Of a stretch of 64,000 nt of DNA, positions 1 through 16,814 are shown one piece after another. The DNA comes from Bradyrhizobium sp. SRS-191 (GTDB taxonomy: Bacteria; Pseudomonadota; Alphaproteobacteria; Rhizobiales; Xanthobacteraceae), in contig NZ_JANBVS010000006.1 of NCBI RefSeq assembly GCF_024586915.1, positions 62,001 through 126,000 of the forward strand, read 5' to 3'. A program made the position numbers and the translations under genes. The stretch's first letter is position 1, and the number at the start of each line of letters is the position of its first letter. Below the pieces are notes generated by a model. It did not search any database. It was not told where the DNA came from and saw only the letters and a program-made list of their open reading frames with translations.

Positions 1-611
1 TTGCCGAGCGGAATCAGCGTGGGCCCCACGAGATGGAGTCCGAGACCAACCGCACCGATCAGCAGCCCGGCGACACCCACCAGCTTCCATACGTTGAGCG
101 CGCACAGCCGCAGCACGGCCATCACCAGCATGATGCCGAGCCCGGTCGGCAGCGCCGCGGCGCGCCAGAGATTGGACAGCTCCAGCGCCGGCGTGGTGAC
201 GATCGCCTCGTCGGCGGCGAACTCATAGGCGGGATCGATCACCAGGATCAGGAAAGCCAGCGGCGCGGCGATGGCGAGCACGTCGAGGAACGACTGCATC
301 GGCTTCGACAGCCGGCCGACCGCCGCCGTCATGCGCATGTGCTCGCCGCGCTGACACGCGACGGCGGCCCCGAGCATCGCCAGCCAGAGAAACAGGATGC
401 CGGCCAGCTCATCCGACCAGATCAGCGGCTTGTGGAAGACGTAGCGGGCGCAGACGCCCGCGAACAGCACGCCGATCTCGGCGACGACGAGCAGCGCCGC
501 CGCAGCCGAGACAATGGCGCCCAATCCTCGCTCGATAGCGCGCGCGAGGGAAGCGAGGCCGGTTGCGGGAAGCACGGATGCACTGGAATGGTCGGCGAGC
601 TGCATGGTCAT
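1..611 (-). CDS. TRAP transporter permease, DctQ-type N-terminal part (partial at window edge)
   Basis: The frame runs from ATG at 611 (alternative ATG 605) off the left edge without a stop, about 203 residues. It contains hydrophobic segments separated by short polar loops, and the early run ARYVFHKPLIWSDELA is typical of DctQ small TRAP permeases. DctQ normally ends after four membrane segments. Here the frame continues into a further hydrophobic stretch ending VGPTLIPLG, so a fused DctQ-DctM permease is likely, but the DctM part lies outside the window. The gene is 30 bases downstream of the TRAP binding-protein gene on the same strand and surely shares its operon. The complex would use an ion gradient to import a small organic acid; the substrate cannot be read from the sequence. 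Confidence 0.82.
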   Translation of the reverse strand, partial: MTMQLADHSSASVLPATGLASLARAIERGLGAIVSAAAALLVVAEIGVLFAGVCARYVFHKPLIWSDELAGILFLWLAMLGAAVACQRGEHMRMTAAVGRLSKPMQSFLDVLAIAAPLAFLILVIDPAYEFAADEAIVTTPALELSNLWRAAALPTGLGIMLVMAVLRLCALNVWKLVGVAGLLIGAVGLGLHLVGPTLIPLG

Positions 612-641: not shown

Positions 642-1664
642 TCAGCTGATGTTGCCGGCGTAGCGCTGCAGCAGAGTCCAGGCCTCGTCGCCGAACTTGG
701 CCTTGGCGTCCTTGTAGAAGCTGGTCTTGGCGAGCGTCGCCTGGAACAGCTCGGCATCGGTCTTGTTGAAGGTCAGCCCCTTGCCTTCCAGGGTCTTCTG
801 CAGGTCGGCATTGGCCTGGACGATGTCGTTGCGCTGCTTCTTGGCTGCGTCGTTGAACTTCGTCTGCAGCAGCTGCTGCACGTCCTTCGGGATCGTCTTC
901 CAGATCTTGCCGCTCGACAGCAGCCAGAAGCCGTCCCAGCTGTGATTGGTCAGCGAGCAGAACTTCTGCACCTCGTAGAACTTCGCGGATTCGATCAGCG
1001 CCAGCGGGTTCTCCTGGCCGTCGGCGATCTTGGTCTGCAGCGCCGAATAGGCTTCGCTCAGGGGAATGCTCACCGGCGAGGCGCCGAACGCCGAGAACAT
1101 CGCCACCCACAGCGGCACCACCGGCACGCGGATCTTGAAGTTGGCGAGATCGGCCGGCGTGTTGATCGGCTTGGTGCTGGTCGTGATCTGGCGGAAGCCG
1201 TTGTCCCAGACGCTCTCGAACGGAAACAACCCGACCTTCTCGATGTTGCGGCGGATGAAGCCGCCGACCTCGCCGTCCATCGCCGCCCACACCTTGTCGT
1301 AGCTGGTGAAGGCGAAGCCGACGCCGGTGAGCGAAGCGGTCGGGATCAGGGTCGACAGCACGGTGCCCGGCATGGTCGCGAGCTCGAGCGCGCCGGAGCG
1401 CAGCTGGGTGATCATGTCGCTGTCGCTGCCGAGCTGATTGTTCGGAAAAAGGCTGATCTCGACCTGCCCCTTGGTCTCGGCGGTGATCGCATCGACCGCC
1501 TCGCGCAGCCGCACGTTCACCGAATGCGTGGCGGGCAGGTCGTTGCCGAATTTCAGCTTGAGCGGCGCGGCCTGCGCCAGCACGGCCGGTGTCTTCGCGA
1601 GATAGCCGGCAGCGGCGGCGCCGGCAGCAGTGGTCAACAACGCACGACGGCTCACCTTGAGCAT
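642..1664 (-). CDS. TRAP transporter periplasmic substrate-binding protein (DctP family)
   Basis: About 340 residues, usual for DctP. ATG 1664 is preferred over an upstream in-frame start at 1733 because GGGAGAG precedes it and an SRRALL Tat-like signal with a hydrophobic stretch ending VLAQA starts there; the 1733 start would place the operator inside the coding region. DctP features include FGNDLPATHSVN near the mature start, ELATMPGTVLSTLIP, and FKIRVP, where the arginine usually contacts the ligand carboxylate. It delivers substrate to the DctQ/M permease encoded directly downstream. A promoter overlapping a GAATTC-rich operator lies 45-75 bases upstream and is almost duplicated in front of the PCu(A)C/alcohol-dehydrogenase genes, which ties this importer to that oxidation system. 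The substrate is unknown; an organic acid is inferred. Confidence 0.9.
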   Translation of the reverse strand: MLKVSRRALLTTAAGAAAAGYLAKTPAVLAQAAPLKLKFGNDLPATHSVNVRLREAVDAITAETKGQVEISLFPNNQLGSDSDMITQLRSGALELATMPGTVLSTLIPTASLTGVGFAFTSYDKVWAAMDGEVGGFIRRNIEKVGLFPFESVWDNGFRQITTSTKPINTPADLANFKIRVPVVPLWVAMFSAFGASPVSIPLSEAYSALQTKIADGQENPLALIESAKFYEVQKFCSLTNHSWDGFWLLSSGKIWKTIPKDVQQLLQTKFNDAAKKQRNDIVQANADLQKTLEGKGLTFNKTDAELFQATLAKTSFYKDAKAKFGDEAWTLLQRYAGNIS

Positions 1665-1706: not shown

Positions 1707-1738
1707 GAATTCGTATTCCGAATTCGAATTCAAAGCAA
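1707..1738 (-). promoter_or_regulatory. Promoter with GAATTC-rich operator for the TRAP operon (site A)
   Basis: Three GAATTC hexamers start at 1707, 1720 and 1726; the last two abut and form a 12-base palindrome. Read on the minus strand, a possible -35 TTGCTT (1733-1738) and -10 TACGAA (1710-1715) are 17 bases apart, so a protein bound to the boxes would cover the spacer. Site B at 9081-9112 has the same boxes, spacing and promoter geometry. A GntR/FCD protein encoded next to site B is the obvious candidate ligand-responsive repressor (inference). Confidence 0.65.
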
Positions 1739-1817
1739 GTAGATTCTACCTGAGGTTTTTACGGTTAATAGATACCGTAGGCCGAACGAAGGGCTTGCGC
1801 TCACCAAACTCAAAGGT

Positions 1818-1990
1818 GTCGTCCGGGCAAGCGCGCCAACGCGACAGCGTTGGCGCGCGCCGACCCGGGATCCATACGCCGCGGCGGACGTGGCTGGGCG
1901 AGATGGGTCGACCATCGTGCCCCGCACGTCTCCCTGGGGTTATGGGTCCCGGATCGGCGCGCGCGTTGCGCGCTTGTCCGGGACGACGAC
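1818..1990. repeat. Intergenic palindromic repeat (GTCGTCC...GGGACGAC family)
   Basis: The element opens with GTCGTCCGGGCAAGC and closes with GCTTGTCCGGGACGAC. Its middle contains the phrase GGGGTTATGGGTCCCGG that recurs at 39400 and, in altered form, near 63420 and 63650. It has further internal stems of GCGCGCC type. It fills most of the 570-base gap between the TRAP operon and the molybdenum hydroxylase genes, where I see no convincing gene. Such elements are dispersed non-coding repeats in Bradyrhizobium-like genomes. Confidence 0.7.
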
Positions 1991-2193
1991 GGAGATCTGA
2001 ACTGGCAGATTGCCAATCCCCGGACCTGCTTGATCGTCGACCCGCTCGCGCGCTGCGGCGAATGTCACCGGGGTAATCGACGAACGACGGCTCGCCAGTC
2101 CGATAAAGCTAAGATCCAAATAAACTAGCTAACTAATAGACGCGAACCGCGCGTGCGAGATGATGCGGCCGCGCTAAAGAACTTGAGCAATCG

Positions 2194-2223
2194 ATGGGTG
2201 GAGCGACGCACCGCCCCACCCAT
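2194..2223 (-). terminator. Probable terminator of the molybdenum hydroxylase genes
   Basis: ATGGGTGG (2194-2201) pairs perfectly with CCACCCAT (2216-2223), extended by GCG/CGC after one mismatch. The hairpin begins 12 bases past the stop of the large subunit gene. There is no clear T run, so intrinsic termination is uncertain. Confidence 0.5.
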
Positions 2224-2234
2224 CTCGTGATGGA

Positions 2235-4529
2235 CTACGCCTTCATCGCCGCCTTCACCGCCTCGGCGGTGATCGGCAGCGAGCGCAGCCTTGCGCCGCA
2301 GGCATTGTAGATGGCGTTGCCGAGCGCCGGCGCGACCACGGTCACTGCGGGCTCGCCGACGCCGGTCGCCTTCTCGCCATTGGCGATGACTGATATCGCG
2401 ACCTCCGGCACCTGGCTCATGCGCAGCGGCGTGTAGCTGTCGAAGTTGGTCTGCTCGATGCCGCCATCCTTCAGCGTCGCCTTCTCGTACATCGCCAGCG
2501 ACAGGCCCCACAGCGCCGCGCCCTCGACCTGGGCGCGGATGTTGTCGGGATGCACTTGCGTGCCGACGTCGGTCGCCACGGTGAGCTTCTTCACGGTGAC
2601 CGCGCCGTTGTCGGCGACCGCGACATGGGCGACGCAGGCCGTCCAGCTCGCGGTCGCCCGCTCTTGCGACGAGACGCAGGCGACGCCCATGCCCTCGCCC
2701 TTCGGCAGCTTCTTGGCGCCGTAGCCCGAGAGCCCCATCGCCGCGAGCAGCGTGTTGCGCAGCCGCTGCGCGCCGCCATCGTTCTTGCCCTTGCCGTCGA
2801 GCAGCGCGATGCGGAATTGCGCCGGGTCCTGGCCCGAGGCGGCCGCGATCTCGTCGATCATGCTTTCCACCGCCCAGAACGTCCAACCCGGCGCCACCGA
2901 GCGGAGCTGCCCGGACGGCGTCGCATTGTGCGCGAGCTCGTTCTTGATCGCGCGCACATGGTGGTTGGGCACGGTGTAGAAGAAGTCGGCGCCGTTGACC
3001 GTGAACGAGTCGAGCGGGCCCTTCTTGTCGACCGAGGGGGACAGGAAGTCCGGAATGCCCCAGCGCGCCGTCGGCCAGGCCGAGACCACGTCGTGGCTCA
3101 GTGCGACCAGCTTGCCGTCGGCGTCGAGGCCTGCCTTGACCTTCTGGTAGGTGAGCGGCCGCGAGTAGTCCATCGTCATGTCGTTCTCGCGGGAGTAGAT
3201 CACCTTGACCGGCTTGCCGACCGCTTTCGCCGCCTGCACCGCCGGCACCATCATGTCGGCATCGAGCCGGCGGCCGAAGCCGCCGCCGAGCCAGGCCTGG
3301 TGCATCACGACGTATTTCGGATCGATCCCGGCGGCGCCGGCCGCGATCGCGCCGGAGCGGGTCGCGAACTGATTGCCCGAGTAGATATGCAGGATGTCGC
3401 CCTTGAACTCGGCCGTCGCGTTCATCGGCTCCATGGGCGCATGGATGTTGATGCTGGTAGTGTACTCCGCCTCCAGCACCTTCGCCGCACCGGCGAGTGC
3501 TGCCGTGGCATCGCCGTCCTTGACGAAGAACTGCCCGGCATCGTCCTGCGCCTGCAGCCGCATCGCCTCGGTGATGATGCTGTCGGTGCTGACATTGGCA
3601 TAGGGACCCTTGTCGTAGCTGATCTTCAGCGCATCCGCCGCCTTCTTGGCGTTGGCGAAGGTGCTCGCGACCGCGACCACCCAGCCCGAGGTCGAGCCGG
3701 TCTTGTCGTCGAGCGTCACCGCCTTGATGAAGCCCGGGACCTTCTTGGCCTCGGAGTCGTCGACCGATGTGACGGTCGCGCCGAAGCGCACCGGCGGGGT
3801 CACCACCTTGCCGTAGACCATGCCCGGCAGCATCGTATCGATGCCGTATTTCGCCGTCCCGTTGGTCTTCGAGGGGATGTCGAGCTGCGGCACCGAGACG
3901 CCGATCATGGTGTACTGATCCGGCGACTTCAGCGTGATCGCCTTCAGCTCGTCCGGCGTGAAGCTCTTGGTGATCTTGCCGCTCTTGACGATCTCGGCAT
4001 AGCTCATCTGCTTCTTCGACTTCGGATGCATCACGACGCCGTCGCGCACCGTGAGCTCCTTGGCGGGCACGCCCATGGAAGTCGCGGCGGCTTCGGTCAG
4101 CGCGATGCGCCCGGCCGCACCGGCCCGGCTCATGGCGTCGAAGTTCATCATCGTGCTCCAGCTGCCGCCGGTGATCTGGGCGCCGAGCACGGGATCGTTG
4201 AACTTCGGATCGTTGGAGGCGAGCTGGACGCGCATGTCCTTCCAGGCCGCACCGAGCTCCTCGCAGATAATCTGCGCCATGGTGGAGGCGATGTGCTGGC
4301 CCATGTCGGCCTTGCCGCAGGTCACGGTGACCAGGCCATCGGGCGCGATCGAGTACCAGACGCTCGGCTCGAAGGCTGAGGGCGTCGTCGCTGCAAGCGC
4401 GCTATCGGCGAGGCCGGCATAGCCGAGCACGAGGCCGGTGGCGGCGGTGCCGACCAGGAAGGAACGGCGGCTGAGATCGGGGGCCATATCTGGGGTCATG
4501 GCGGGCGCTGCTTTCACGTGCTCGTTCAT
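2235..4529 (-). CDS. Molybdopterin-binding aldehyde/isoquinoline oxidoreductase, large subunit (IorB-like)
   Basis: 764 residues from ATG 4529, which overlaps the stop of the iron-sulfur subunit gene as ATGA. The N-terminus has a Tat signal ([13 protein letters not shown]), so a folded, cofactor-loaded enzyme is exported with its partner. Family features are [16 protein letters not shown] in the Mo-cofactor region and [13 protein letters not shown] near the C-terminus, whose glutamate is the usual catalytic base of xanthine-oxidase-family enzymes. The family hydroxylates N-heterocycles (isoquinoline 1-oxidoreductase) or oxidises aldehydes in the periplasm. Lying downstream of a quinoprotein alcohol dehydrogenase, aldehyde oxidation is the more likely job here (inference). 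No three-haem cytochrome subunit is encoded beside it; the single-haem cytochrome c at 6048 may take electrons. The terminal location fits the end of the run. Confidence 0.88.
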
Positions 4530-5014
4530 GTCGCCCTCCGGTCGCTGCCGTTCGAGGCGGTGCGCATCTCGGACGCGGCGCGCTGGATCGCCTTCTGGAT
4601 CCGCGAATAGGTCATGCAGCGACAGAGATTGCCGTCCATGTGCGCTGTGATCTCCTCCTTGGTCGGGCTCGTCGTTTTGGCGAGCAGCGAGGCCGCCTGC
4701 ATGATCTGCCCCGATTGGCAGTAGCCGCATTGCGGCACCTGCTCGGCGATCCACGCCTTCTGCAAGGGATGATCGCCCTTCTGCGACAGCCCCTCGATCG
4801 TGGTGATCTTCTTGTCCTTGACGTCGCCGACCATGGTCTGGCACGAGCGCACCGCCTCGCCGTTGACATGCACGGTGCACGCCCCGCACAGCCCGGCACC
4901 GCAGCCGAACTTGGTTCCGGTCATCTGCAACTGCTCGCGGATGACCCATAGCAGCGGCGTGTCGTTCGCCGCATCGACAGAGACGTCTCTGCCGTTGATA
5001 CTGAGTTTCGCCAT
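4526..5014 (-). CDS. (2Fe-2S) subunit of molybdenum hydroxylase (IorA-like)
   Basis: 162 residues from ATG 5014, with AAGGAGG nine bases upstream; a TTG at 5020 is too close to that site. The N-terminal plant-ferredoxin-type cluster site is [16 protein letters not shown] and the second, C-terminal cluster site is [10 protein letters not shown] followed by GNLCRCMTY, the standard two-cluster layout of small subunits in the xanthine oxidase family. There is no signal peptide, as expected for a subunit carried through the Tat system by its partner. It moves electrons from the Mo centre of the large subunit to an external acceptor, probably a cytochrome c. Translation is coupled to the large subunit by the ATGA overlap. 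Confidence 0.92.
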
Positions 5015-5142
5015 TGCCAAGAACCTCCTTACGGGACGGATTTGCTCTGCAGCGAACGCCCATCGGCGTTCCGGCTCATCTCGGCCGCGCGGCGCCCCAT
5101 CGCCCGCACGCTCGCCGGAGCGGTGAAATTGCAGTCTCAGCT

Positions 5143-5178
5143 TGGGGCAGCGACCGCGGATTGCGAGCCGCTGCCCCA
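5143..5178 (-). terminator. Hairpin between pqqA and the iron-sulfur subunit gene
   Basis: A perfect 10-base stem, TGGGGCAGCG (5143-5152) with CGCTGCCCCA (5169-5178), lies 13 bases past the pqqA stop. It may be a weak terminator or an mRNA-stabilising structure that separates expression of pqqA from the molybdenum enzyme genes. There is no adjacent T run on the minus strand. Confidence 0.5.
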
Positions 5179-5190
5179 GGTCACGTCAGA

Positions 5191-5286
5191 TCAGCCCTTG
5201 CGCTCGGCCTTCCGGCTCGCGCAGGCGTACATGTTGATTTCCATGCCGACCGGCACTTCGACGATCTTGGGGGCAGTCCAGCTCAT
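5191..5286 (-). CDS. pqqA: PQQ precursor peptide PqqA
   Basis: 31 residues from ATG 5286, with GGAG seven bases upstream. The peptide starts MSWTAPKIVEV and contains GMEINMY, giving the invariant Glu-x3-Tyr pair (E16 and Y20) that the radical SAM enzyme PqqE cross-links to build pyrroloquinoline quinone. The basic tail ending SRKAERKG is usual for alphaproteobacterial PqqA. No pqqB, C, D or E gene is in the window, so this is either an isolated copy or the only copy, placed with a PQQ enzyme. It lies between a secreted-protein gene and the molybdenum hydroxylase genes, and would make cofactor precursor when the quinoprotein at 6643-8421 is expressed. The match is strong despite the short length. 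Confidence 0.9.
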   Translation of the reverse strand: MSWTAPKIVEVPVGMEINMYACASRKAERKG

Positions 5287-5418
5287 GCTCGTTCTCCAGG
5301 AGAGGATGATCATCGCCGCGCAACCGACGGCCACCCGCATCTCCGGCAACTCTCCGCACCCGGCGACGGCAGGCATGACACGCATGTGCCTCGCCTGAGG
5401 GGCGAGGCATGAGTTCGA

Positions 5419-6051
5419 TCAGTTCGTCTGCTTGGTGATCCGGACCAGCGTCTGATCGACGAAGCTCTTGATGTCCTGATCCGGCTTGCGGAACAGCTCG
5501 CGCTCGACCGTCAGCATCCGGCCCGGCACCGTCTTCTTGCAGACCTCGCGCAGGAAAACGCCGCCGACGGGCTGCTCGCCTGCCGTCGGCTGCAGCTCCT
5601 TGCAGTCCCAGCCTTCCGCGCCATAGCGCGACTTCACCTGGTTGCCGAGCAGGAATGCCTTCTTGCGGATGTAGAGCCGCGCCTTCGGGTCGGTCTCGAT
5701 GTTGAGCCCGAACACCGTCGCCTTGTCGTCGATCACAGCCGTGAGCAGCACCGGGTGGCCGGCCACCTTGGTGCCGTCCTGGCTGGTCTCCGGATCGAAC
5801 TCGAAGCGCACCGCTCGCCGCCCCTGCTCATCGGCCGGACAGTCGCGCCAGCCCGACCATGCATCGAGCTTGCGATCGGGCGCCCCGGCGCAGCTGAGGT
5901 TGACATAGCCTTCGTTCGGGAGGTTGCCGACCGGCATGCCGACGGTGATGTCGCGCAGATCGTAGCTCGGCACGGCCTGCGCAGAGGCGGTGTGCATGAC
6001 GAGGGACAGCAGGATCGTCGCGAAGATCGCAGTGCAGGTGGAGCGTTTCAT
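5419..6051 (-). CDS. Secreted protein of unknown function in the quinoprotein gene run
   Basis: 210 residues from ATG 6051, overlapping the cytochrome c stop as ATGA. A signal peptide (MKRSTCTAIF start, cleavage near ASAQA) points to the periplasm. The mature part begins with SYDLRDITVGMPVGNLP and has six cysteines, some of which could form disulfides. I do not recognise the family. Coupling to the cytochrome and alcohol dehydrogenase genes suggests an accessory role, for example in substrate capture or electron-transfer assembly (inference). Confidence 0.75.
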   Translation of the reverse strand: MKRSTCTAIFATILLSLVMHTASAQAVPSYDLRDITVGMPVGNLPNEGYVNLSCAGAPDRKLDAWSGWRDCPADEQGRRAVRFEFDPETSQDGTKVAGHPVLLTAVIDDKATVFGLNIETDPKARLYIRKKAFLLGNQVKSRYGAEGWDCKELQPTAGEQPVGGVFLREVCKKTVPGRMLTVERELFRKPDQDIKSFVDQTLVRITKQTN

Positions 6052-6578
6052 TTGGATGGCTCGCTTGCAGGCTGGGTCGCATTGGCCTTGTAGATATCGC
6101 AGACGCGCGAGGTGTTGCCGAAGAAGGCGGTGCACTCGTCATAGGTCGGCTCGCCCCGGCCCTTGATGTGCGCGAGCACGTAGTCCGCGACCGCCTCGAT
6201 GTCGTTCGGGCGCAGAAAGGTACCGCCTTCGGGCGGCATGCGCTCGCCGACATCCTGCCGGCTCATCTCGTAGCACTTCGTAGTGTCGTACGAGCCACGC
6301 GCAAAATACGGCATGCCCGTTCCCGGCCGTCCGCAGGTGACGGTCTCGATGATGTGCTGGCGGTCGAGCTCGGTCTTGCGCAGCGACAGAGCGTCACCGC
6401 CATAGCCGCCGCCGCCATTGCCATGCCATTTGTGGCAGCCGACGCAGTTGGCGCGCTTGAACACCGCCTTGCCGGCGTCGGTCGGATCGGCCGGCGCAGC
6501 AGACTGGGCCGATGCGAGGGAGCTGGAGACGATAACGAAAGCCAACGCCACCGTGGACGTGATCGCACTGAATTTCAT
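6048..6578 (-). CDS. Periplasmic c-type cytochrome
   Basis: 176 residues with a signal peptide ending near ASAQ and one haem site, C45-V-G-C48-H49, followed by a glycine-rich HGNGGGGYGG segment. GMPYF and RMPPEGG supply candidate axial methionines. The GKAVFKRANCVGCH opening and the PNDIEAVADYVLAHIKG ending are class I cytochrome features. It is directly downstream of the PQQ dehydrogenase (64-base gap) and is the likely electron acceptor of that enzyme, comparable in role to MxaG/XoxG or cytochrome c550, though not obviously orthologous. It may also serve the molybdenum hydroxylase. Confidence 0.88.
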   Translation of the reverse strand: MKFSAITSTVALAFVIVSSSLASAQSAAPADPTDAGKAVFKRANCVGCHKWHGNGGGGYGGDALSLRKTELDRQHIIETVTCGRPGTGMPYFARGSYDTTKCYEMSRQDVGERMPPEGGTFLRPNDIEAVADYVLAHIKGRGEPTYDECTAFFGNTSRVCDIYKANATQPASEPSK

Positions 6579-6642
6579 CTGATTGACTTGCCGAACGGGG
6601 AAAGGGAAGGAGCGGAGGCAGCGCCTCCGCTCCTTGATCGAC

Positions 6643-8421
6643 TTACAGCGCGAAGACGTAGAGCATCGAGCCGGGCTGGATCTTCTTCAGCTCGGGCGTG
6701 GATTCGATGAACCACTTGTCCCAGGCGCCGCCGAGACCGACGAGGATCGCGACATACTGCTTGCCGTCGACCGAGAAGGTCACGGGAGGCGCGTTGACGC
6801 CGCCGCCGGTGTTGAACTCCCACAGCTTCTGCAGGGTCTTGGCATCGAGCGCCATCACCTCGCCCGAGGGCTGGCCGGTGAAGACGAGGTCAGGCGTCGA
6901 CAGCATGCCGCCGAGATTCGGGAACGGCGTCTCCATCTTGCCGGCGATCTTGCCGGTGGTGACGTCGATCGCGGTCACGCTGCCCGTGATCTTGAACGGC
7001 TGGCTCGGTCCGCCGCCGGTCCAGAACTCGCGCGCCTTCAGCTTGTCCTTGGTTGCTTCCTCGACGGTGATCCGGTTGCAGCTCTCGATCACCGGGATGT
7101 ACCAGAGCTTCAGGTCCGGATTGTACGAGGTCGGCGGCCAGTTCTTGCCGCCCATATTGCCGGGGCAGATGTCCGCGATCTTGTTCTCACGATGCGGCGT
7201 CACGGACGCATTGTAGCGCTGCACCGGATTCTTCGGATCGTACTCGATCGGCTTGCCGGTCTCGGGATCGAGACCCTTGGTCCAGGTCACCTTCTTGACG
7301 AACGGCAGGCCCCAGAGGAACTTGCCGTTGGTGCGGTCGATCGCATAGGCGAAGCCGTTGCGATCGGCCTCGAGGGCGAGCTTCTGGGTCTGTCCGTTCG
7401 GCGTGGGCACGTCGACCAGGACGTTCTCCGCGACGCTGTCATAGTCGTAGGGATCGTTCGGCGTGTGCTGATAGTGCCACTTGATCTTGCCGGTGTTGGC
7501 GTCGAGCGCCAGCGAACTGTCGGTGTAGAGATTGTCGCCCGGGCGATAGGCGTTGTCCCAGTCCGGACCAGGGTTGCCGACGCCCCAGATGATGGTGTCG
7601 GTCGACGGGTCGTAGGTGCCCGTGACCCAGGTCGAGCCACCGCCGGCCGCAGCCGCATCGTTGCTGTCCTTCCAGGTCTCGCTGCCGGGCTCGCCCTTCG
7701 CCGGAATGGTGTGGGTGCGCCAGACTTCCTTCTGCGTGGTGAGATCGGTCGCGGCGATCCAGCCGCGGATGCCGTATTCGGCGCCGGCGACGCCTGATAT
7801 CGCCATGTTCTTCACGATCAGCGGCGCACCGGTGATGACCTCGCCCTTGTCGGGATCGGCGACCTGGCGCTGCCAGGCGACCTGCCCGGTCTCTTTATTA
7901 GTTGCGATCAGGCGGCCGTCGAGCGTGTGCGAGACGACGAGATTGCCCCACAGCGCAACACCGCGATTGTCGACGCCGCAGCAGGCGATCGCACCGGCCC
8001 AGTCGTGATCCGTCTTCGGATCCATCTTCCAGACCATCTGGCCTTTGCCGCCGCGCGCATCGATCTTGTAGACCGAGCCCCAGCCGTCGGTGACGTAGAT
8101 CATGCCGTTCTCGACGATCGGCGTGCCTTCGAGACCGCCATGGCTCCAGATGCCGCCGCCCTCGACGCCGCCGAGATGCATCGTCCAGGCGACCTTCAGG
8201 TTCTTGACGTTGTCCTTGTTGATCTCCTTCAACGTCGAGAAGCGCGTGCCCGAATAGTTCTTGTGATGATGCAGCCAGTTGCCGGCTTCCTTCTCGGCAT
8301 TGAGCAGCCGCTCCGGCGTCATCTCGTCGGCGGCTCGCACCGGCGACGCCAGATTGAAGCAGGCAAAGGCGGCGCTGGCGAGCAGCACCGCCCGCAGGGT
8401 TGTCCTGACGTTGATCCTCAT
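6643..8421 (-). CDS. PQQ-dependent alcohol dehydrogenase with lanthanide (DYD) motif
   Basis: 592 residues with a signal peptide (cleavage near VRAAD), the usual size for methanol/ethanol-family quinoproteins: an eight-bladed propeller acting in the periplasm. Seen: the adjacent-cysteine disulfide C147-C148; the metal-binding glutamate in GAEYGIRG (E215); the metal-binding asparagine in GVGNPGPDW (N283); and catalytic D326 in PYDYDS. The aspartate at +2 (D328) makes the DYD motif, which in XoxF, ExaF and PedH adds the ligand needed for a lanthanide ion; calcium enzymes such as MxaF have alanine or a similar residue there. Lanthanide dependence is therefore predicted. The substrate is open (primary alcohols); it lacks an obvious haem domain, so electrons leave through a separate cytochrome. 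It is the core of the run from 9029 to 5191, downstream of operator site B. Confidence 0.93.
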   Translation of the reverse strand: MRINVRTTLRAVLLASAAFACFNLASPVRAADEMTPERLLNAEKEAGNWLHHHKNYSGTRFSTLKEINKDNVKNLKVAWTMHLGGVEGGGIWSHGGLEGTPIVENGMIYVTDGWGSVYKIDARGGKGQMVWKMDPKTDHDWAGAIACCGVDNRGVALWGNLVVSHTLDGRLIATNKETGQVAWQRQVADPDKGEVITGAPLIVKNMAISGVAGAEYGIRGWIAATDLTTQKEVWRTHTIPAKGEPGSETWKDSNDAAAAGGGSTWVTGTYDPSTDTIIWGVGNPGPDWDNAYRPGDNLYTDSSLALDANTGKIKWHYQHTPNDPYDYDSVAENVLVDVPTPNGQTQKLALEADRNGFAYAIDRTNGKFLWGLPFVKKVTWTKGLDPETGKPIEYDPKNPVQRYNASVTPHRENKIADICPGNMGGKNWPPTSYNPDLKLWYIPVIESCNRITVEEATKDKLKAREFWTGGGPSQPFKITGSVTAIDVTTGKIAGKMETPFPNLGGMLSTPDLVFTGQPSGEVMALDAKTLQKLWEFNTGGGVNAPPVTFSVDGKQYVAILVGLGGAWDKWFIESTPELKKIQPGSMLYVFAL

Positions 8422-8504
8422 CGTTTCCTTCTCCCATCTTGATTATGCGTTCGAACGAAAACCGCTCCGCCAGTCAGCGAAGGGCCGCAGGCGACAAACA
8501 GACT

Positions 8505-9029
8505 TCACGGGGACTTGCGAACCTCGACCTCCGTTTCGATGGATCCCGCTTTCTGGAAAACGATCGTGCAGGTGAAACGCTTGCCCGGCTCAAGCGGCTC
8601 GCGCGTCTGCAGCAGCATCACGTGATAGGCCGTCGGCAACAGCACCAGCGTGCTGCCCGCGGCGATCGGAATGTTGGGAATGGAGCGCATCGCCGGCGCG
8701 CCCTCGCCGCGATCGACGGTGTGACGCTCGGAGAAATTCGCGATCGGACAGCGCACGCGCATCAACGCTTCGGCCGATGATGTTTCGTTCTTGATGGTGA
8801 TCAGCAGAGGAATGTCGCGACCGACCTCGGGCGCCGCGGGCACCCAGGCATCGGACAGGCTGAGGCCTTCGCCGGCCAGCGCCACCTGAGACATCAGACC
8901 GACGAGAACAACGGAAAATGCCGCCGAAGCACCCCGCGAGACAAGCGCCCGCGCAGCCGCGCGCACGCTGCCCTCCAAGGACGCCGAACAGCCGTCATCA
9001 CGCTTCGAACGAGCCGGTAGATCCGACAC
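8505..9029 (-). CDS. PCu(A)C-domain copper-chaperone-like periplasmic protein
   Basis: 174 residues from GTG 9029, preceded by GGGAGGG. An internal hydrophobic segment (about residues 34-52, ending VALAGEG) serves as signal peptide. The mature domain has the exact copper(I) motif of this family: H103, ten residues, M114, twenty-one residues, H136-V-M138. PCu(A)C proteins hand Cu(I) to cytochrome oxidases or other periplasmic sites and are usually beside senC/sco genes. Here the neighbour is a quinoprotein operon, and this is its first gene, directly behind operator B. A role in supplying metal to an electron-transfer partner, or an adapted ligand-binding role, is possible; neither is shown by the sequence. 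Confidence 0.85.
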   Translation of the reverse strand: MSDLPARSKRDDGCSASLEGSVRAAARALVSRGASAAFSVVLVGLMSQVALAGEGLSLSDAWVPAAPEVGRDIPLLITIKNETSSAEALMRVRCPIANFSERHTVDRGEGAPAMRSIPNIPIAAGSTLVLLPTAYHVMLLQTREPLEPGKRFTCTIVFQKAGSIETEVEVRKSP

Positions 9030-9080
9030 GGACGCCCTCCCCGAAATGTTGAAGCCGTTTTAGCTTGGCTCCTTGCTTCT

Positions 9081-9112
9081 GAATTCGTACTCTGAATTCG
9101 AATTCCTCGCAA
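9081..9112. promoter_or_regulatory. Promoter with GAATTC-rich operator, divergent region of GntR gene (site B)
   Basis: GAATTC hexamers start at 9081, 9094 and 9100, the same spacing as site A. On the minus strand a -35 TTGCGA (9107-9112) and -10 TACGAA (9084-9089) are 17 bases apart, upstream of the PCu(A)C/alcohol-dehydrogenase run. The regulator gene at 9155 reads away on the plus strand, so autoregulation is likely as well. Confidence 0.68.
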
Positions 9113-9154
9113 ATGGATTTTCGCGCTTTGCGTGTTATTGTTCCTGAGAATGTG

Positions 9155-9874
9155 ATGCCCATGCGAATCGTGCCCCCTGCCCCCTCCCTGGTCGACCAGG
9201 TCGTCGAAGCGATCACTGACGAAATCGTCAGCGGCGTGCTGGCGTCCGGCTCGCGCCTGATTCAGGACGATCTCGCGCAGGCCTATGGCGTGTCGCGGCA
9301 GCCGGTTCAGCAGGCGCTGATTCTGCTGCGCGGCTGCGGCCTCGTGCAGAGCGCGCCAGGGCGCGGCCTGATCGTGGCGCCGCTCGATCCGAGCTTCGTG
9401 CGGGATCTCTATGAGATGCGTGCCGTGCTCGAAGGCCTGGCGGCGCGGCTTGCCGCCGAGCGTTCCAGCGATCGCGCGGCGCGCGAAGGACCGGCTTACA
9501 TCGTTGCTGGCCATGAGGCGCTCAAGAGTGGCCTGGTCAGCCGCAAGATCGAGACCGACATCGCCTTCCACCGCTTTCTCAGCGGGCTCTCCGGCAACGC
9601 GATGATCGACGAGACGATGGCACCGCATTGGCCTTATCTGAAGCGCGTGATGTCGGACGTGTTTCAGAAGGAGGAGAGCATGTCCCAGACCGTCTGGGAC
9701 GAGCATGAGGATATTCTCGCGGCCATCATCGAGGGCCGCAGTGCCGAGGCCGAACGGCTGAGCCGCGACCACATCTCGCGCGCGGCGGCGGTCTTCATCC
9801 ACCACCTGGAAGCCCAGCAAGGCGACAAGGCGAAGCAGCGCCGTACGCTCTCGGGACGAAAGATGTCGCTATGA
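9155..9874 (+). CDS. GntR-family transcriptional regulator, FCD subfamily (first of a tandem pair)
   Basis: 239 residues from ATG 9155. An earlier in-frame ATG at 9113 touches the operator and has no ribosome site, and alignment with the neighbouring paralogue supports 9155. The N-terminal winged helix reads LIQDDLAQAYGVSRQPVQQAL; the C-terminal helical FCD ligand domain follows, with DLYEMRAVLEGLAARLA and several His/Asp/Glu positions that usually bind metal and an organic acid. It is transcribed away from site B and is the best candidate to bind sites A and B, repressing the TRAP and alcohol-dehydrogenase genes until a carboxylate inducer appears (inference). Confidence 0.88.
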   Translation: MPMRIVPPAPSLVDQVVEAITDEIVSGVLASGSRLIQDDLAQAYGVSRQPVQQALILLRGCGLVQSAPGRGLIVAPLDPSFVRDLYEMRAVLEGLAARLAAERSSDRAAREGPAYIVAGHEALKSGLVSRKIETDIAFHRFLSGLSGNAMIDETMAPHWPYLKRVMSDVFQKEESMSQTVWDEHEDILAAIIEGRSAEAERLSRDHISRAAAVFIHHLEAQQGDKAKQRRTLSGRKMSL

Positions 9875-9917: not shown

Positions 9918-10604
9918 GTGCCGCCGCTGAAGACCGAACCGAGCCTGACCGAGCGCGTCTATCAGCGCATCCTGTCCGACATCGTCGGCGGGGAGTTGCC
10001 GGAATCCGCGCGGCTGATCCAGGACGATCTGGCGCGCGACCTCGGCGTGTCCAGGCAGCCGGTGCAGCAGGCGCTGCTGCTGTTGCGTAACCAGGGTTTT
10101 GTCCGCGAGGCACCGGGACGCGGCCTCGAGGTTGCGCCGATCGACACCGACTTCATCCGCAATCTCTATGAAATCCGCGCCGTCGCCGAAGGTCTCGCCT
10201 GCAGGCTCGCAGCCACCCGTGGTGCCGAGCGTGCGGCCGAGGAAGGCCCGAAGCTGATCGAGCAAGGCCGCCGCGCCGAGCGCGAGCATTCGGTCGAGAA
10301 GCTGATCGAGGCCGACGTCAAGTTTCACGAATTCCTCTACGAGATCTCCGGCAATTCCGTCATCCAGGACACCACGCAGCCGCATTGGCTGCATCTGCGC
10401 CGGCTGATGGGCGAGGTGCTGATGCGGGACGAGACGCCGCGGCGGATCTGGGATCAGCATGAGGAGATCCTCGGTGCGGTGATCGCGGGCGATGCGCAGA
10501 AGGCCGAAGATCTCGCGCGGCAGCACATCACGCGCACCGCCACCGTGTTGTTGGCACGGCTATCCAGACAGCGCGATCGCGTCCCCGTCGCGACGCCCTC
10601 CTGA
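9918..10604 (+). CDS. GntR-family transcriptional regulator, FCD subfamily (second of a tandem pair)
   Basis: 228 residues from GTG 9918, with CAGGAGG five bases upstream. It closely resembles the preceding regulator: LIQDDLARDLGVSRQPVQQAL in the winged helix and NLYEIRAVAEGLACRLA at the start of the FCD domain, which indicates tandem duplication. The 43-base gap and same strand suggest cotranscription. The two may respond to different inducers, or form heterodimers at the same operator. No GAATTC operator precedes this gene by itself. Confidence 0.88.
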   Translation: MPPLKTEPSLTERVYQRILSDIVGGELPESARLIQDDLARDLGVSRQPVQQALLLLRNQGFVREAPGRGLEVAPIDTDFIRNLYEIRAVAEGLACRLAATRGAERAAEEGPKLIEQGRRAEREHSVEKLIEADVKFHEFLYEISGNSVIQDTTQPHWLHLRRLMGEVLMRDETPRRIWDQHEEILGAVIAGDAQKAEDLARQHITRTATVLLARLSRQRDRVPVATPS

Positions 10605-10737: not shown

Positions 10738-11598
10738 GTGAGCAGCAAGGCCACCGCGCCGACGTTCAGCCCGGCCGCCGACATTGAAGGCGTCTCGGAT
10801 CAGCAGCGGCGCGAGATCCAGGCGCAAAGCCGGCCGAACGCCGCGCTGATTCACGAGACGATCCGCGCCGAAGGCGAGAGCGAGCTCGAGCGGCGCTGGT
10901 GGGCGATCCTGCTGTCGGGGCTCGCCGCGGGCCTGTCGATCAGTCTGTCGCTGATCGTGCAGGGCGAATTCCACGCCTTCGTCTCCGACGAAGCTACGCG
11001 GCGGCTGTTCGCTCCCCTCGGCTATACCGCCGGCTTCCTGGTCGTGGTGCTCGGCCGGCAGCAATTGTTCACCGAGAACACGCTCACGCCGATCCTGCCG
11101 CTGCTGCATCATCGCGACGTGAAGACGCTCGGCCAGGTCGCACGTCTGTGGACCCTGGTGCTCATCGCCAACGTCGCAGGGACATGGGCGGCGGCCGCCG
11201 CGCTGGCGTACACCCACGTGTTCGAGCAGCGCATCGTCGATGCGTTCACCGAGATCAGCCGCCACACCGTCGAAGGGCCATTCTCGACCACCTTTGCGCG
11301 CGCGGTGTTCGCGGGCTGGCTGATCGCCTTGATGGCCTGGCTGCTGCCGGCCGTGCGCGGGGCCCGCGCCCATATCGTGGTGGTGATGACCTATCTGGTG
11401 GCGCTGGGGCAGTTCGCGCACATCGTCGCCGGCTCCGTCGAATGCGCATTCCTCGTGTTCAAGGGCGAGGTCTCGCTCGCCGACTATGTTCGCGTCTTCT
11501 TCGTTCCGACCTTGCTCGGCAACGTCGTCGGCGGCACGACGCTGGTGGCCATTCTCAACTATGGACAGGTTGCGGCCGAGCTCGACCAGGACGGCTGA
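10738..11598 (+). CDS. Formate/nitrite-transporter (FNT) family membrane channel
   Basis: 286 residues from GTG 10738. After a polar N-terminus of about 55 residues come six hydrophobic segments; GYTAGFLVVVLGRQQLFTENTLTPILPLL is the conserved FNT region with the N-T-L slit-forming loop. FNT pentamers carry formate, nitrite, hydrosulfide or other small monovalent anions across the inner membrane. The long hydrophilic start is closer to the YfdC-like branch than to FocA. It converges on hupT with an 18-base gap. A link to H2 or formate metabolism is tempting but rests only on proximity. Confidence 0.85.
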   Translation: MSSKATAPTFSPAADIEGVSDQQRREIQAQSRPNAALIHETIRAEGESELERRWWAILLSGLAAGLSISLSLIVQGEFHAFVSDEATRRLFAPLGYTAGFLVVVLGRQQLFTENTLTPILPLLHHRDVKTLGQVARLWTLVLIANVAGTWAAAAALAYTHVFEQRIVDAFTEISRHTVEGPFSTTFARAVFAGWLIALMAWLLPAVRGARAHIVVVMTYLVALGQFAHIVAGSVECAFLVFKGEVSLADYVRVFFVPTLLGNVVGGTTLVAILNYGQVAAELDQDG

Positions 11599-11616: not shown

Positions 11617-12955
11617 TCACGCGGCGGGAAGAGCAAACGAGAACGTCGCGCCGCCATCGGGCTCGTTGCGGGCGGAGAGCTCGCCGCCATGCTCGCGGAC
11701 GATGCCGTAGCTGATCCACAGCCCAAGCCCCGTGCCCTCCCCGACGCGCTTGGTCGTGAAGAACGGCTCGAAGATGTGGCTGAGATGATCCTTGTCGATC
11801 CCCGGACCATTATCGGTGATGCGGAAAGCGATCTCGGCGCCCTGCCGCGATGCGGCGACCACGAGGCGCGGCAGCTCGGTCGCGCGCATCGCATCGATGG
11901 CGTTCTCGACGAGATTGACGATGACCTGATGCAGCTGGCCTTCATTGCCGGAGATCCAGAGGTCCGGCTCGACCTCGATCTGGATGTCGACGCGATGCTG
12001 CTTGGTACGGCCGGCCCACAGCACGGCCGTGTTGATCAGCCGCTCGATATTCACGCGCTCGACCTCGCCGAGCTTGGAGAAAGACAGCCGGCGCAGGTTC
12101 TTGACGATCTCGCTGATGCGGACCGCGCCTTCCAGCGTGCCCTCTATCAACGGCCCGAAATCCTCAAGGATAGCATCGATGCGCAGGTCGTTACGCAGCG
12201 CGGCGACCTCTTCGGAGATCGGCTGCTCATGGACCGCGTCGAGATAACCGACCAGCGAGGTCCGGTAGCGCATCAGGGTGTGAACGTTGCCATAGACGAA
12301 GCTGATCGGGTTGTTCAGCTCATGCGCGACGCCGGCCACGAGGCGGCCGAGGCTCGCCATCTTCTCCTGTTCGACCAGCTGCCGCTGCGCGCGCTGCAGC
12401 TCCTGATGCGCCTTGTGCAGGGCTTCATAGGCACGGCGCAGCTCGCCGATCGGACGCCCCGTGAGCACCACGCCGATGAAACGGCCACGATGATCGTGCC
12501 GCGGCGAGCTGTTGATCGCGAACAGGTCGGAGCTCGGGCCGTCGGCGGCGAAGCGCAACTCGCCATCGACCACCTCGGCACTGCTGCGCGGCTTCAGAAG
12601 CGACGCCAGCTTGCTGCGGTGATCGACGTCGATCATCTCGGCAATGTTGCGGCCGGCGATCTCTCCCAGCGTACGGCCCGAGGTGCGCTGGAACGCGGAA
12701 TTGGCTTGCTGCACGGTGCCTCTCGCATCGCAGACGACGAGAATGTCCGAGACGGACTCGATGACGTTGGTGACGAAGGCCTGGGCCTCCTCGAGCTCCG
12801 CATTCTTGTGCTCGAGGTCGACCTCGTAGCGCAGCAAGTCGGAATAGACCTCGTCCATCTTGCGGATCACTTCGATCCACACGCCCTCGCGCTCGCTGTC
12901 GAATTCGAGCGTGCTGCTGCTCGCGATCAGCTTCAGCAGCGTGTCGGCGCCGGAC

Positions 12956-12981
<26 letters not shown>
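11617..12981 (-). CDS. hupT: Sensor histidine kinase of the H2-responsive system (HupT)
   Basis: 454 residues. An N-terminal coiled stretch is followed by a PAS domain (about residues 68-180), then dimerisation helices with the phospho-acceptor in VAHELNNPISFVYGN (H220), the run that characterises HupT/HoxJ kinases, and a C-terminal ATPase domain with N, G1 and G2 boxes (NLVENAIDAM, DNGPGID, GTGLGLWIS). No membrane segments: a soluble kinase. In known systems it phosphorylates the HupR/HoxA regulator without H2 and is silenced through the HupUV sensor when H2 is present. Its start overlaps hoxA by 26 bases. It ends the long hydrogenase gene run. Confidence 0.9.
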
Positions 12982-14413
<1,432 letters not shown>

Positions 14414-14416
14414 GTC

Positions 14417-15457
14417 TCAGCAGATCCGCGGCAGCTGCTCGCCCGACAGCCAGTCGACGATGCGGCCGCCGCCGAAGCTCGTCGCCATCTGTACGAAGCG
14501 ATGATCGTCGGCCACGGCTTCGCCGATGTCAGCCGCATCCCGTCCGAGCGGATGCGCCTTCATCGCCGCGAGCACGGCGTCGGTGACATCGGGAGCAACC
14601 ACCGCGACCAGCTTGCCTTCATTGGCGACATGCAGCGGATCGAGCCCGAGCAGCTCGCAGGCCGCCGCGACTGCCGGCTTCACCGGAATGGCTTCTTCCT
14701 GCAGGCGGAAGCCGAGATTGGACTGCTGCGCGATCTCGTTCATCGTCGCCGCCAGCCCGCCGCGCGTCGGATCGCGCATCAGCCGGATGCCCTGGCCGCC
14801 GGCCGCGACCATGGCGGCGACCAGGCCGTGCAGCGACGCCGAGTCGGAGACGATCTCGGTATCGAAGGTCAGGTTCTGCCGCTTCGACATGATGGCGACG
14901 CCATGATCGCCGAGGCTGCCGGACAGCAGCACGCGGTCGCCCGGCCGCGCTTTGTCGGCGGAGAGATCAAGGCTGTCGGGCAGCACGCCGACGCCGGCTG
15001 TCGAGATGAACACGCCGTCGGCCTTGCCGCGCTCGACCACCTTGGTGTCGCCGGTGATGATCGCGATGCCGGCCTCTCGCGCGGCCTCCCCCATCGCGTC
15101 GGCAATCCGCTTCAAATCGTCGAAGCGAAAGCCCTCCTCGATGATGAAGCTCGCCGACAGATACAGCGGCTTGGCGCCCGCCATGGCGATGTCGTTGACC
15201 GTGCCGTGCACGGCGAGCGAACCGATGTTGCCGCCGGGAAAGAACAGCGGCGAGACGACGTAGCCGTCGGTCGTCATCACCATACGGCCGGCAGCCACGT
15301 CGAAGGCCGACTGATCGTTGCCGCGCGCAAGCCATTCGTTGCCAAAGGCCTCGTGGAACAGGCCGGCAATCAGTTGCGCCATAGCGCGGCCGCCAGCGCC
15401 GTGCGAGAGGTCGACGCAGCCGTTCTTCAAGTCGAGCCGGCGCTGATGCATGCTCAT
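14417..15457 (-). CDS. hypE: Hydrogenase maturation protein HypE
   Basis: 346 residues from ATG 15457, which overlaps the hypD stop as ATGA. HypE dehydrates a thiocarbamate on its C-terminal cysteine to thiocyanate, the source of the cyanide ligands of the NiFe site. The C-terminus PRIC is the exact functional ending. PurM-like features include LSHGAGGRAM and RDPTRGGLAATMNEIA. It works with HypF (carbamoyl donor) and passes CN to the HypC-HypD complex, all encoded upstream. Confidence 0.96.
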   Translation of the reverse strand: MSMHQRRLDLKNGCVDLSHGAGGRAMAQLIAGLFHEAFGNEWLARGNDQSAFDVAAGRMVMTTDGYVVSPLFFPGGNIGSLAVHGTVNDIAMAGAKPLYLSASFIIEEGFRFDDLKRIADAMGEAAREAGIAIITGDTKVVERGKADGVFISTAGVGVLPDSLDLSADKARPGDRVLLSGSLGDHGVAIMSKRQNLTFDTEIVSDSASLHGLVAAMVAAGGQGIRLMRDPTRGGLAATMNEIAQQSNLGFRLQEEAIPVKPAVAAACELLGLDPLHVANEGKLVAVVAPDVTDAVLAAMKAHPLGRDAADIGEAVADDHRFVQMATSFGGGRIVDWLSGEQLPRIC

Positions 15458-16581
15458 GAGGCGAGCCTCCGCTGATGGTCGCGGAAGCGGCCATAGGTCC
15501 AATGCGCCGCGCAGGCGCCTTCCGACGACACCATGCAGGAGCCGATCGGCGTCTCCGGCGTGCAGGCGGTGCCGAACAGCTTGCAGTCGACCGGCTTCTT
15601 CAGCCCGCGCAGAATGGCGGGACATTCACAGGCCGGATTGTCGGCGACGACCAGCTCACGCATTTCAAAGCGCAGCTCGGCATCGAGATGCGCGAACGCC
15701 GGTCGCAGCTTCAAGGCGCTCGAGGGAATGCTGCCGAGACCGCGCCACTCGAACTGGTCGCGCAGCTCGAAGATCTCGGCCACCTCCCTGATCGCCCGCT
15801 GATTGCCGCTGCCGGTGACGGCGCGGCGATACTGGTTCTCGACCTCGTGGCGGCCGTCATTGACCTGCTCGACCAGCATCAGGATCGCCTGCATCATGTC
15901 GAGCGGCTCGAAGCCCGCGATCACCACCGGCTTGCCATCGTCACGCGCGAACGGCGCATAGGGCTCGGTGCCGATCACGGTCGACACGTGCGCCGGACCC
16001 ACGAAGCCATCGATCTCGATCGGCGTATCACTGTCGAGAATGGCGCGCATCGCCGGCGGCGTCAGCACGTGGTTGCAGAACACGCTGAAGTTTGCCAGCT
16101 GCTTCTTCTCTGCCGCACGGATCATCACCGCGGTGGGCGGCGTCGTCGTCTCGAAGCCGATCGCGAAGAACACGACTTCGCGCCCCGGATTCTGCTCTGC
16201 CAGCGCGATCGCATCGAGCGTCGAATAGACCATGCGGATGTCGGCGCCGCGCGCCTTGGCCTTGAGCAGCGACGAGCCGCGCGAGCCTGGCACGCGCATC
16301 AGGTCGCCATAGACGCAGAGGATGACTTCCGGCCGCTCGGCCAATGCAATCGCCATGTCGATCCGCCCCGCCGGCAGCACGCAGACCGGACAACCGGGGC
16401 CATGGATCATGCGGACGTTCTCCGGCAGCATGTCCTCCAGGCCATAGCGCGCGATGGCATGGGTGTGGCCGCCGCAGAATTCCATGAAACGATAGGCGCG
16501 AGCGGGGTCAGCCTTGGCGCGAATGGCGCGCGCAAGTCCCACAGCCAGCTCCTTGTCGCGAAACTCGTCGGCATATTTCAT
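15454..16581 (-). CDS. hypD: Hydrogenase maturation protein HypD
   Basis: 375 residues from ATG 16581, overlapping hypC as ATGA. HypD is the iron-sulfur scaffold on which, with HypC, the Fe(CN)2CO unit is assembled. Seen are the motif FCGGHTHAI (residues about 35-43), the GPGCPVCV redox-cysteine motif, GFETTTPPTA, and the C-terminal cluster and thiol cysteines (ACECPAI, DCKLFG, GSCMVSSEGAC). Length and motifs are complete. Confidence 0.96.
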   Translation of the reverse strand: MKYADEFRDKELAVGLARAIRAKADPARAYRFMEFCGGHTHAIARYGLEDMLPENVRMIHGPGCPVCVLPAGRIDMAIALAERPEVILCVYGDLMRVPGSRGSSLLKAKARGADIRMVYSTLDAIALAEQNPGREVVFFAIGFETTTPPTAVMIRAAEKKQLANFSVFCNHVLTPPAMRAILDSDTPIEIDGFVGPAHVSTVIGTEPYAPFARDDGKPVVIAGFEPLDMMQAILMLVEQVNDGRHEVENQYRRAVTGSGNQRAIREVAEIFELRDQFEWRGLGSIPSSALKLRPAFAHLDAELRFEMRELVVADNPACECPAILRGLKKPVDCKLFGTACTPETPIGSCMVSSEGACAAHWTYGRFRDHQRRLAS

Positions 16582-16814
16582 GATGCGACCTCCGTGGCTG
16601 CCGCGCCCATCTGCCGGAGCAGGTCGAGCGTCTCGCGCGCCTCCTCCGGATCGATCTTCGTCAGCGCATGGCCGACATGGAGGATGACGTAGTCGCCGAC
16701 CGCGATCTCCTCGATCAGGGCGATCGAGACCTCCTTGCTGACGCCGTCGATCGACACGATGGCCATGTCGTCGGGTAGCAGCTTGATCACCTCGGCAGGA
16801 ATGGCCAGGCACAT
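16578..16814 (-). CDS. hypC: Hydrogenase maturation chaperone HypC
   Basis: 78 residues beginning MCLAIPAEV. The second-position cysteine, exposed after removal of Met1, binds the iron precursor and the large-subunit precursor. The core IAVGDYVILHVGHALTKID is typical. Translation is linked to both neighbours: its ATG shares a base with the hypF stop and its stop overlaps the hypD start. A paralogue, hupF, occurs at 23714. Confidence 0.95.
   Translation of the reverse strand: MCLAIPAEVIKLLPDDMAIVSIDGVSKEVSIALIEEIAVGDYVILHVGHALTKIDPEEARETLDLLRQMGAAATEVAS

Follow-up and report, generated by a model that had tools for sequence, protein, structure and literature searches.

A 64,000-nucleotide stretch of the Bradyrhizobium sp. 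SRS-191 genome (NZ_JANBVS010000006.1, positions 62,001-126,000, forward strand; the window) carries two near-identical predicted operator arrays. One lies in front of an operon that begins with genes for a tripartite ATP-independent periplasmic (TRAP) importer (operon A), and the other lies between an operon for a pyrroloquinoline quinone (PQQ)-dependent alcohol dehydrogenase (ADH; operon B) and a divergent gene for a GntR-family regulator with an FCD domain, designated GntR1. The sites are likely copies of the GntR1 operator, through which both operons would be repressed and a single 2-hydroxy-acid route controlled. Very probably the two operons are one pathway under one switch. The system is one of local control of the FCD type, with an unusual tandem operator. 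The arrays and the promoter-like elements that overlap them are as follows.

1707-1731, no strand: operator array 1, two 12-bp units with a 13-bp period, in front of the TRAP/CoA ligase/lyase operon
9081-9105, no strand: operator array 2, consisting of two 12-bp units and separating the ADH operon from the divergent GntR/FCD genes
1710-1738, minus strand: promoter-like TTGCTT-N17-TACGAA overlapping array 1 (TTGCTT 1738-1733, TACGAA 1715-1710)
9084-9112, minus strand: promoter-like TTGCGA-N17-TACGAA overlapping array 2 (TTGCGA 9112-9107, TACGAA 9089-9084)

The hexamer GAATTC starts at 1707, 1720 and 1726 in site 1 and at 9081, 9094 and 9100 in site 2, in agreement with the three boxes at +0, +13 and +19 described for both sites in the initial annotation of the window. 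The cores (1707-1731 and 9081-9105) are identical at 23 of 25 bases and the 40-bp flanks at 12/40 and 13/40, so that the two promoters are indeed alike and the annotated agreement over more than 25 bases was slightly generous. When up to 3 mismatches were allowed, the strict pattern GAATTCN7GAATTCGAATTC gave 4 matches in the window, all of them accounted for by the two strands of these two sites. The chance expectation was 0.05 matches and none of 100 shuffles reached 4, which supports the proposal that the likeness exceeds chance. The genome-wide search for the three-box pattern, suggested earlier as a check, was performed on the 7.62-Mb genome; perfect matches lie at these two places only, and no third place was found at 0 or 1 mismatch. 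The next-best match to the strict pattern, at C9:34451, has 2 mismatches and lies inside an open reading frame (ORF), and the next-best matches to the unit pattern carry 3 mismatches. With the exception of the match within an ORF, no additional regulon members were found in this genome at 0-2 mismatches.

The arrays of relatives repeat a 12-bp dyad, GAATNCGNATTC, with a 13-bp period. Site 1 (GAATTCGTATTC c GAATTCGAATTC) and site 2 (GAATTCGTACTC t GAATTCGAATTC) each hold a tandem pair of 12-bp units and thus four half-boxes, the second of which is degenerate. An array of two such units describes the sites better than three boxes do, with the spacing unchanged. Each GAATTC box is a palindrome in its own right, so that dyad axes fall both between boxes 0 bp apart and between boxes 1 bp apart. 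The comparative set comprised 25 intergenic regions from 22 loci in 20 genomes, with up to 3 mismatches allowed per unit. At least two units in register were present in 23/25 regions, where the best pairs had at most 4 mismatches; the exceptions were L094, with one degenerate unit, and L103, with none. Three units occur in the clusters of G366, G306, G349, G424, G539 and G145 (L044, L045, L046, L074, L100 and L048), and an additional leftmost unit of L048 and L049 (3 mismatches) was left out of the unit counts. Across 10 orthologous ADH regions, array 2 is invariant in 23/25 columns, compared with 8/25 and 12/25 in the adjoining 25-bp stretches. Equivalents of array 1 are found at the same place in G375, G367, G332 and G406.

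The earlier placement of the boxes inside a TTGCnn-N17-TACGAA promoter holds at both sites, on the minus strand; the promoter-like element of site 1 reads towards dctP and that of site 2 towards the copper-chaperone gene at the start of the ADH operon. With spacers of 16-18 allowed, TTGCnn-N16/17-TAnnnn overlapped the array in 22/25 regions. The pattern was present in 4/5 second sites at dctP (absent from L039) and in 10/10 ADH regions of this type, and was absent from the more distant L094 and from L103. Between the operator and the regulator start (9106-9160) lies a partly conserved TCGCAAATGGATTTT...TGCTAATGT-like stretch, possibly the promoter of the regulator itself. Two regulator genes lie beyond it.

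9161-9874, plus strand: GntR1, GntR/FCD regulator and most likely binder (PF00392 55.2 bits, PF07729 84.2 bits)
9918-10604, plus strand: GntR2, second GntR/FCD regulator, 52% identical to GntR1 (profile match, alignment and tree)

The linkage between array and regulator was assessed in 265 genomes of the genus, in which the regulator was called at E at most 1e-55 and the strict site at no more than 2 mismatches. The regulator was found in 17 genomes and the strict site in 12, all of them regulator carriers. In 16/17 carriers and in 3/3 Xanthobacter loci examined (G145, G073 and G113), the regulator has a unit pair (4 mismatches or fewer) next to it, which suggests, as initially annotated, that the adjacent divergent GntR/FCD gene probably encodes the binder. 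Because the site follows the regulator both in the genus and in Xanthobacter, these results support a shared operator, a cognate GntR/FCD regulator and one regulon. Five carriers lacked the strict site: G366, G349 and G539, which have diverged arrays, G459, and G489, which has one degenerate unit. The G459 array, GAATTC a GAATTCATATAC t GAATTCGAATGC, for which TTGCCT-N17-TATGAA was identified by eye, was retrieved only once the motif was already fixed; among the regions first seen after that point (L094, L100, L103 and L112), 2/4 contain the array. Array and regulator are also carried by the isolates Bradyrhizobium BTAi1 and STM 3809.

Twelve control loci contained zero unit pairs at 4 mismatches or fewer. 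These controls were three loci of distant GntR proteins and nine 2-hydroxyacyl-CoA lyase (HACL) loci lacking a GntR1-like regulator, of which four hold a GntR protein 40-42% like GntR2. The nine were drawn from 20 HACL regions, and HACL was over cut-off in 32 of the 391 genomes searched. Across these 391 genomes of the family, a unit pair with at most 2 mismatches was found in 13, at the cluster in 11 and elsewhere, with 2 mismatches, in 2; the reversed control pattern was found in 2/391. This threshold misses the Xanthobacter array of G113. In B. erythrophlei GAS478 (L103 9880-10683), an interruption in the regulator frame coincides with loss of the operator, seen as a single alignment gap, and dctP, dctQM, ligase, permease and lyase are retained at 79-88% identity.

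GntR1 consists of an N-terminal GntR helix-turn-helix (HTH) and a C-terminal FCD domain, both over cut-off, and belongs to the FCD (FadR) subfamily. Its start is probably the ATG at 9161, which encodes the Met of an MRIV common to most close orthologues, rather than the 9155 previously given; 9113 is likewise disfavoured. Residues D133, H137, H182 and H204 are invariant in 14 orthologues and are candidates for the Asp, His, His and His metal ligands of the FCD pocket. An AlphaFold2 model of GntR1 had a mean pLDDT (predicted local distance difference test) of 88.3, and a Foldseek search with this model gave the best E-values for PmiR and Atu1419/VanR and the best TM-scores for 7u5q and AlkR. 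DNA-contact residues of FadR are R35, R45, T46, R49 and E50 (PMC4494728, Table 1). If an ungapped register is assumed, R45 corresponds to R46 of GntR1, and R35, T46, R49 and E50 correspond to D36, Q47, Q50 and Q51. This correspondence fits, without predicting, a non-canonical operator. A residue-to-base code for this operator was abandoned, as no base assignment came from the FadR-contact comparison.

The genes controlled by the two arrays would be the following.

642-1664, minus strand: dctP, TRAP solute-binding protein (PF03480, TIGR00787)
1-611, minus strand: dctQM, fused TRAP permease, partial; extends before the window and is followed by acyl-CoA ligase, AEC permease and HACL (L007)
8505-9029, minus strand: PCu(A)C-type copper chaperone, encoded at the head of the ADH operon (PF04314 85.7 bits)
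6643-8421, minus strand: PQQ-dependent ADH, lanthanide-type D-x-D (TIGR03075 546.8 bits, cut-off 480.05; aligned to 6zcw)
6048-6578, minus strand: c-type cytochrome (PF13442)
5419-6051, minus strand: protein without family, with a signal-peptide-like start by eye (no Pfam/NCBIfam match at E 0.001)
5191-5286, minus strand: pqqA, PQQ precursor peptide (TIGR02107 45.2 bits, cut-off 20)
4526-5014, minus strand: 2Fe-2S subunit of a xanthine-dehydrogenase-family oxidoreductase, IorA-like (PF01799, PF00111)
2235-4529, minus strand: molybdenum subunit, IorB-like, with an SRRSFL twin-arginine-like start (PF02738, PF20256)

Putative operon A runs downwards from 1664 and leaves the window; it contains dctP, dctQM, acyl-CoA ligase, AEC permease and HACL, and all components of a DctP-type TRAP system (DctP, DctQ and DctM; PF03480, PF04290 and PF06808) are present. 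Putative operon B runs downwards from 9029 and encodes the PCuAC chaperone, PQQ-ADH, cytochrome c, the unassigned protein, PqqA and the two-subunit Mo/2Fe-2S oxidoreductase. The IorB-like start at 4529 was picked by eye and overlaps the stop of the preceding gene; the scans used 4487. The pqqA gene inside the ADH operon is shorter than the ORF cut-offs used, and a protein of the 5419-6051 type comes after the cytochrome gene in related ADH clusters where the stretch is covered.

Both sites are on one contig in G000, G367 and G406 (the G406 stretch stops short of HACL) and on two contigs in G332 and G375. Five other genomes (G289, G326, G438, G439 and G532) lack the IorAB-site-dctP-dctQM segment, and a single site precedes their ADH genes, which lead on to the genes for ligase, permease and lyase. 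The gap before the ligase gene is 84-246 bp in these genomes, and the fused stretch would be one transcript. A single site in G459 is followed by ligase, lyase, chaperone, PQQ-ADH, cytochrome and unassigned protein, in this order, and G424 has a similar arrangement. This recurrence of the same enzymes behind the same operator in varied gene orders is the best evidence that both operons serve one pathway. In G424, a TRAP deletion scar (L074 7413-7642) joins dctP residues 1-32 to dctQM residues 581-626.

The lyase scored 840.9 bits against the 600-bit equivalog cut-off of the 2-hydroxyacyl-CoA lyase model NF058623 and matched the AcHACL structure 7pt1 at 5.9e-187. Twelve of 13 active-site positions checked are kept (positions from PMC8760513 and PMC13327070, with Gly42 added by us); the sole difference is Q41 of AcHACL, which is C28 here. 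Catalytic Glu493, Gln128 and Glu65 of AcHACL correspond to E475, Q115 and E52. Also kept are acyl-side L566 and V569, together with Leu127 and Ile492, the residues said to limit substrate size in AcHACL (PMC8760513, PMC13327070). The Actinomycetospora lyase serves the degradation of 2-hydroxyisobutyrate and 2-methylpropane-1,2-diol and is encoded beside an acyl-CoA ligase (PMC7176365).

The PQQ-ADH (6643-8421) belongs to the PQQ methanol/ethanol family. Its best PDB match is 6zcw/6zcv, which we take to be PedH, and it shows DYD in the alignment where 6zcw has DFD. The corresponding Asp in PedH has been associated with lanthanides (PMC5487730), and the enzyme is predicted from its sequence to be of the lanthanide type. 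A motif search found YDYD in 11/14 PQQ-ADH translations (L040 and L080 being one genome) and gave no match in L077, L079 and L112. The regulon thus probably spans periplasmic oxidation, acid import, CoA activation and C-C cleavage. The initial annotation proposed a two-operon regulon that joins import with oxidation; this is retained, extended by CoA activation and lyase cleavage and with the ADH coupling limited to certain lineages. The form of the array, the GntR2 paralogue and the downstream lyase pathway were missed there.

In the proposed mechanism, GntR1 dimers would occupy the tandem dyads (GAATNCGNATTC units, 13-bp period) and so cover the spacer and -10 of both promoters, repressing both operons. 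Release of the regulator would be brought about by a small acid, for which a 2-hydroxy acid or its CoA ester is the most likely candidate. PQQ-ADH and the Mo aldehyde oxidoreductase would generate a short periplasmic 2-hydroxy acid, which the TRAP system would bring into the cell, the acyl-CoA ligase would activate and the HACL would cleave to a carbonyl compound and formyl-CoA. One further gene may bear on this route.

10738-11598, plus strand: formate/nitrite transporter family protein (PF01226 166.6 bits)

This gene, which lies behind GntR2, fits formate arising from formyl-CoA, and its product is a possible formate exit. Among related loci it was found in L038, L040, L041, L075 and L077 and not in L073, L076, L078 and L079. 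Beyond it on the minus strand (11617-20046) are genes for a PAS histidine kinase, a sigma-54 response regulator, an AIRS-fold protein and HypD-, HypF- and CobW/HypB-like proteins, a hydrogenase-maturation neighbourhood apparently unrelated to the regulon.

Several observations weigh against this interpretation. Binding of GntR1 to the arrays is a prediction, and the arrays lack the GT/AC core usual for the FCD subfamily; by reading, GTM-N0-1-KAC is absent from both 25-bp sites. G489, with a regulator at 67%, has one degenerate unit and no promoter match, and the interrupted frame of GAS478 could be an assembly error. The ADH half of G424 starts approximately 680 bp beyond HACL and lacks an array of its own. 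The regulator is directly divergent from dctP in G366, G306, G349 and the three Xanthobacter genomes, and no ADH genes were seen beside these six clusters (G306 lies at a contig end). Coupling to oxidation is therefore lineage-specific, and import and cleavage can exist without a nearby ADH operon. Acetone carboxylase gamma was found in 0/14 carrier Bradyrhizobium tested (of 17; G459, G489 and G539 were left out), 0/21 non-carrier Bradyrhizobium and 3/3 Xanthobacter, so a route from 2-hydroxyisobutyrate to acetone would need another acetone exit in these Bradyrhizobium. Lastly, a tree with long outgroup branches does not separate GntR1, GntR2 and the single regulators, and GntR2 could be the binder or a co-binder.

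The adjacent GntR1 and GntR2 genes encode an identical recognition helix, SRQPVQQAL, which together with the unseparated tree makes shared binding a real possibility; given that tree, GntR1 was not retained as the sole possible binder. The single regulators with complete frames in other array-bearing clusters (L044-L046, L048-L050, L074 and L100) are 57-64% identical to GntR1 and 54-59% to GntR2. GntR2, alone or with GntR1, might thus read the arrays, with two FCD domains sensing different signals at one operator. However, the divergent neighbour in the loci examined is a GntR1-like gene and not GntR2. Moreover, at E 1e-55, 10/17 carrier genomes hold both genes and 7/17 have a single match, and the array is present in 6 of these 7, where one regulator evidently suffices. 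We consider a role for GntR2 in reading the arrays conceivable and somewhat doubtful. Closer to an even chance, although still short of it, is a shared regulator with a substrate other than a branched 2-hydroxy acid, such as a linear diol or a glycolate-type acid, from which the lyase would yield an aldehyde and formyl-CoA. The acetone carboxylase result in the carriers favors such a substrate, as does the acceptance of short-chain aldehydes and ketones by other 2-hydroxyacyl-CoA lyases (PMC7176365), whereas retention of L127, I492, L566 and V569 of AcHACL argues for a branched one.

Two explanations do without an operator or without a regulon. The -35/-10-like elements with fixed spacing in 22/25 regions are what a promoter recognised by an alternative sigma factor would show, but dyad positions outside both hexamers are conserved as well, some arrays extend past the -10 with their third unit, and the array accompanies the GntR/FCD gene; a sigma-factor element alone is accordingly disfavoured and very improbable. 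Two near copies 7.4 kb apart could also be a dispersed repeat or mobile-element end that happens to lie at both places. The initial annotation named boxes dispersed at many unrelated places as one finding that would overturn its proposal. This is refuted by the occurrence of only these two places in the genome itself and by the match at the cluster in 11/13 family genomes with a unit pair, and the chance of it is negligible. A GntR1 operator shared by both operons is therefore preferred. More tentatively, tandem FCD paralogues with identical helices may read a new FadR-subfamily operator, made of 13-bp-period GAATTC-like dyads in 2-3 units by lineage, that controls a lanthanide-linked oxidation, import and lyase route.

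A complete candidate pathway, together with its proposed operator and regulator, thereby becomes testable in isolates such as BTAi1 or STM 3809. The results would connect a PQQ dehydrogenase of the lanthanide type with one particular downstream route and suggest a use, in these Alphaproteobacteria, for 2-hydroxyacyl-CoA lyase, an enzyme studied for one-carbon biotechnology. The largest GntR subfamily would also gain an operator that is non-canonical and varies naturally in its number of units.

The gene content resembles that of the Actinomycetospora chiangmaiensis Lyase-HCL cluster and related 2-hydroxyisobutyrate clusters, in which the lyase gene likewise lies beside acyl-CoA ligase and alcohol/aldehyde oxidation genes (PMC7176365). 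Those clusters oxidise via MpdB/MpdC, whereas the present genes combine a PQQ dehydrogenase with a Mo enzyme and a TRAP importer. A GntR-family gene is usual beside hcl-mutase clusters (PMC7176365), and the isobutylene cluster of Mycolicibacterium ELW1 contains a FadR/GntR gene and a thiamine pyrophosphate (TPP) lyase (PMC13188929); the GntR neighbour is thus not new in itself. No operator for the GntR regulators of hcl-mutase or isobutylene clusters was met in the excerpts of the literature looked at. Within the open-access literature, with subscription papers outside the search, no description of this regulon was met, and 2-hydroxyacyl-CoA lyase in Bradyrhizobium gave no open-access match. 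Pseudomonas PedH-type lanthanide PQQ-ADH has the Asp at the same lanthanide-associated place; here the enzyme is encoded behind a GntR/FCD array.

GntR1 shares its HTH and FCD architecture with the FadR-subfamily (FCD) GntR repressors Atu1419/VanR, PmiR, LldR and GlcC. The Atu1419 palindrome lies over the -10 or between the -35 and -10 (PMC7797058), as do the dyads here. The core reported for the FCD subfamily is GTM-N0-1-KAC (PMC4494728), in contrast to the 13-bp dyad array without this core. NanR and BioR are further exceptions to it (PMC4494728), and the missing core therefore concerns the type of operator and not the membership of GntR1 in the FCD subfamily. The nearest parallel is E. coli NanR, an FCD regulator that acts on several operons of one pathway through a tandem (GGTATA)3 operator of which at least two repeats are required (PMC8012715). 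FCD regulator and tandem repeats are likewise combined here, but the boxes of NanR differ in sequence and repeat in direct orientation, whereas the units of the Bradyrhizobium arrays are palindromic.

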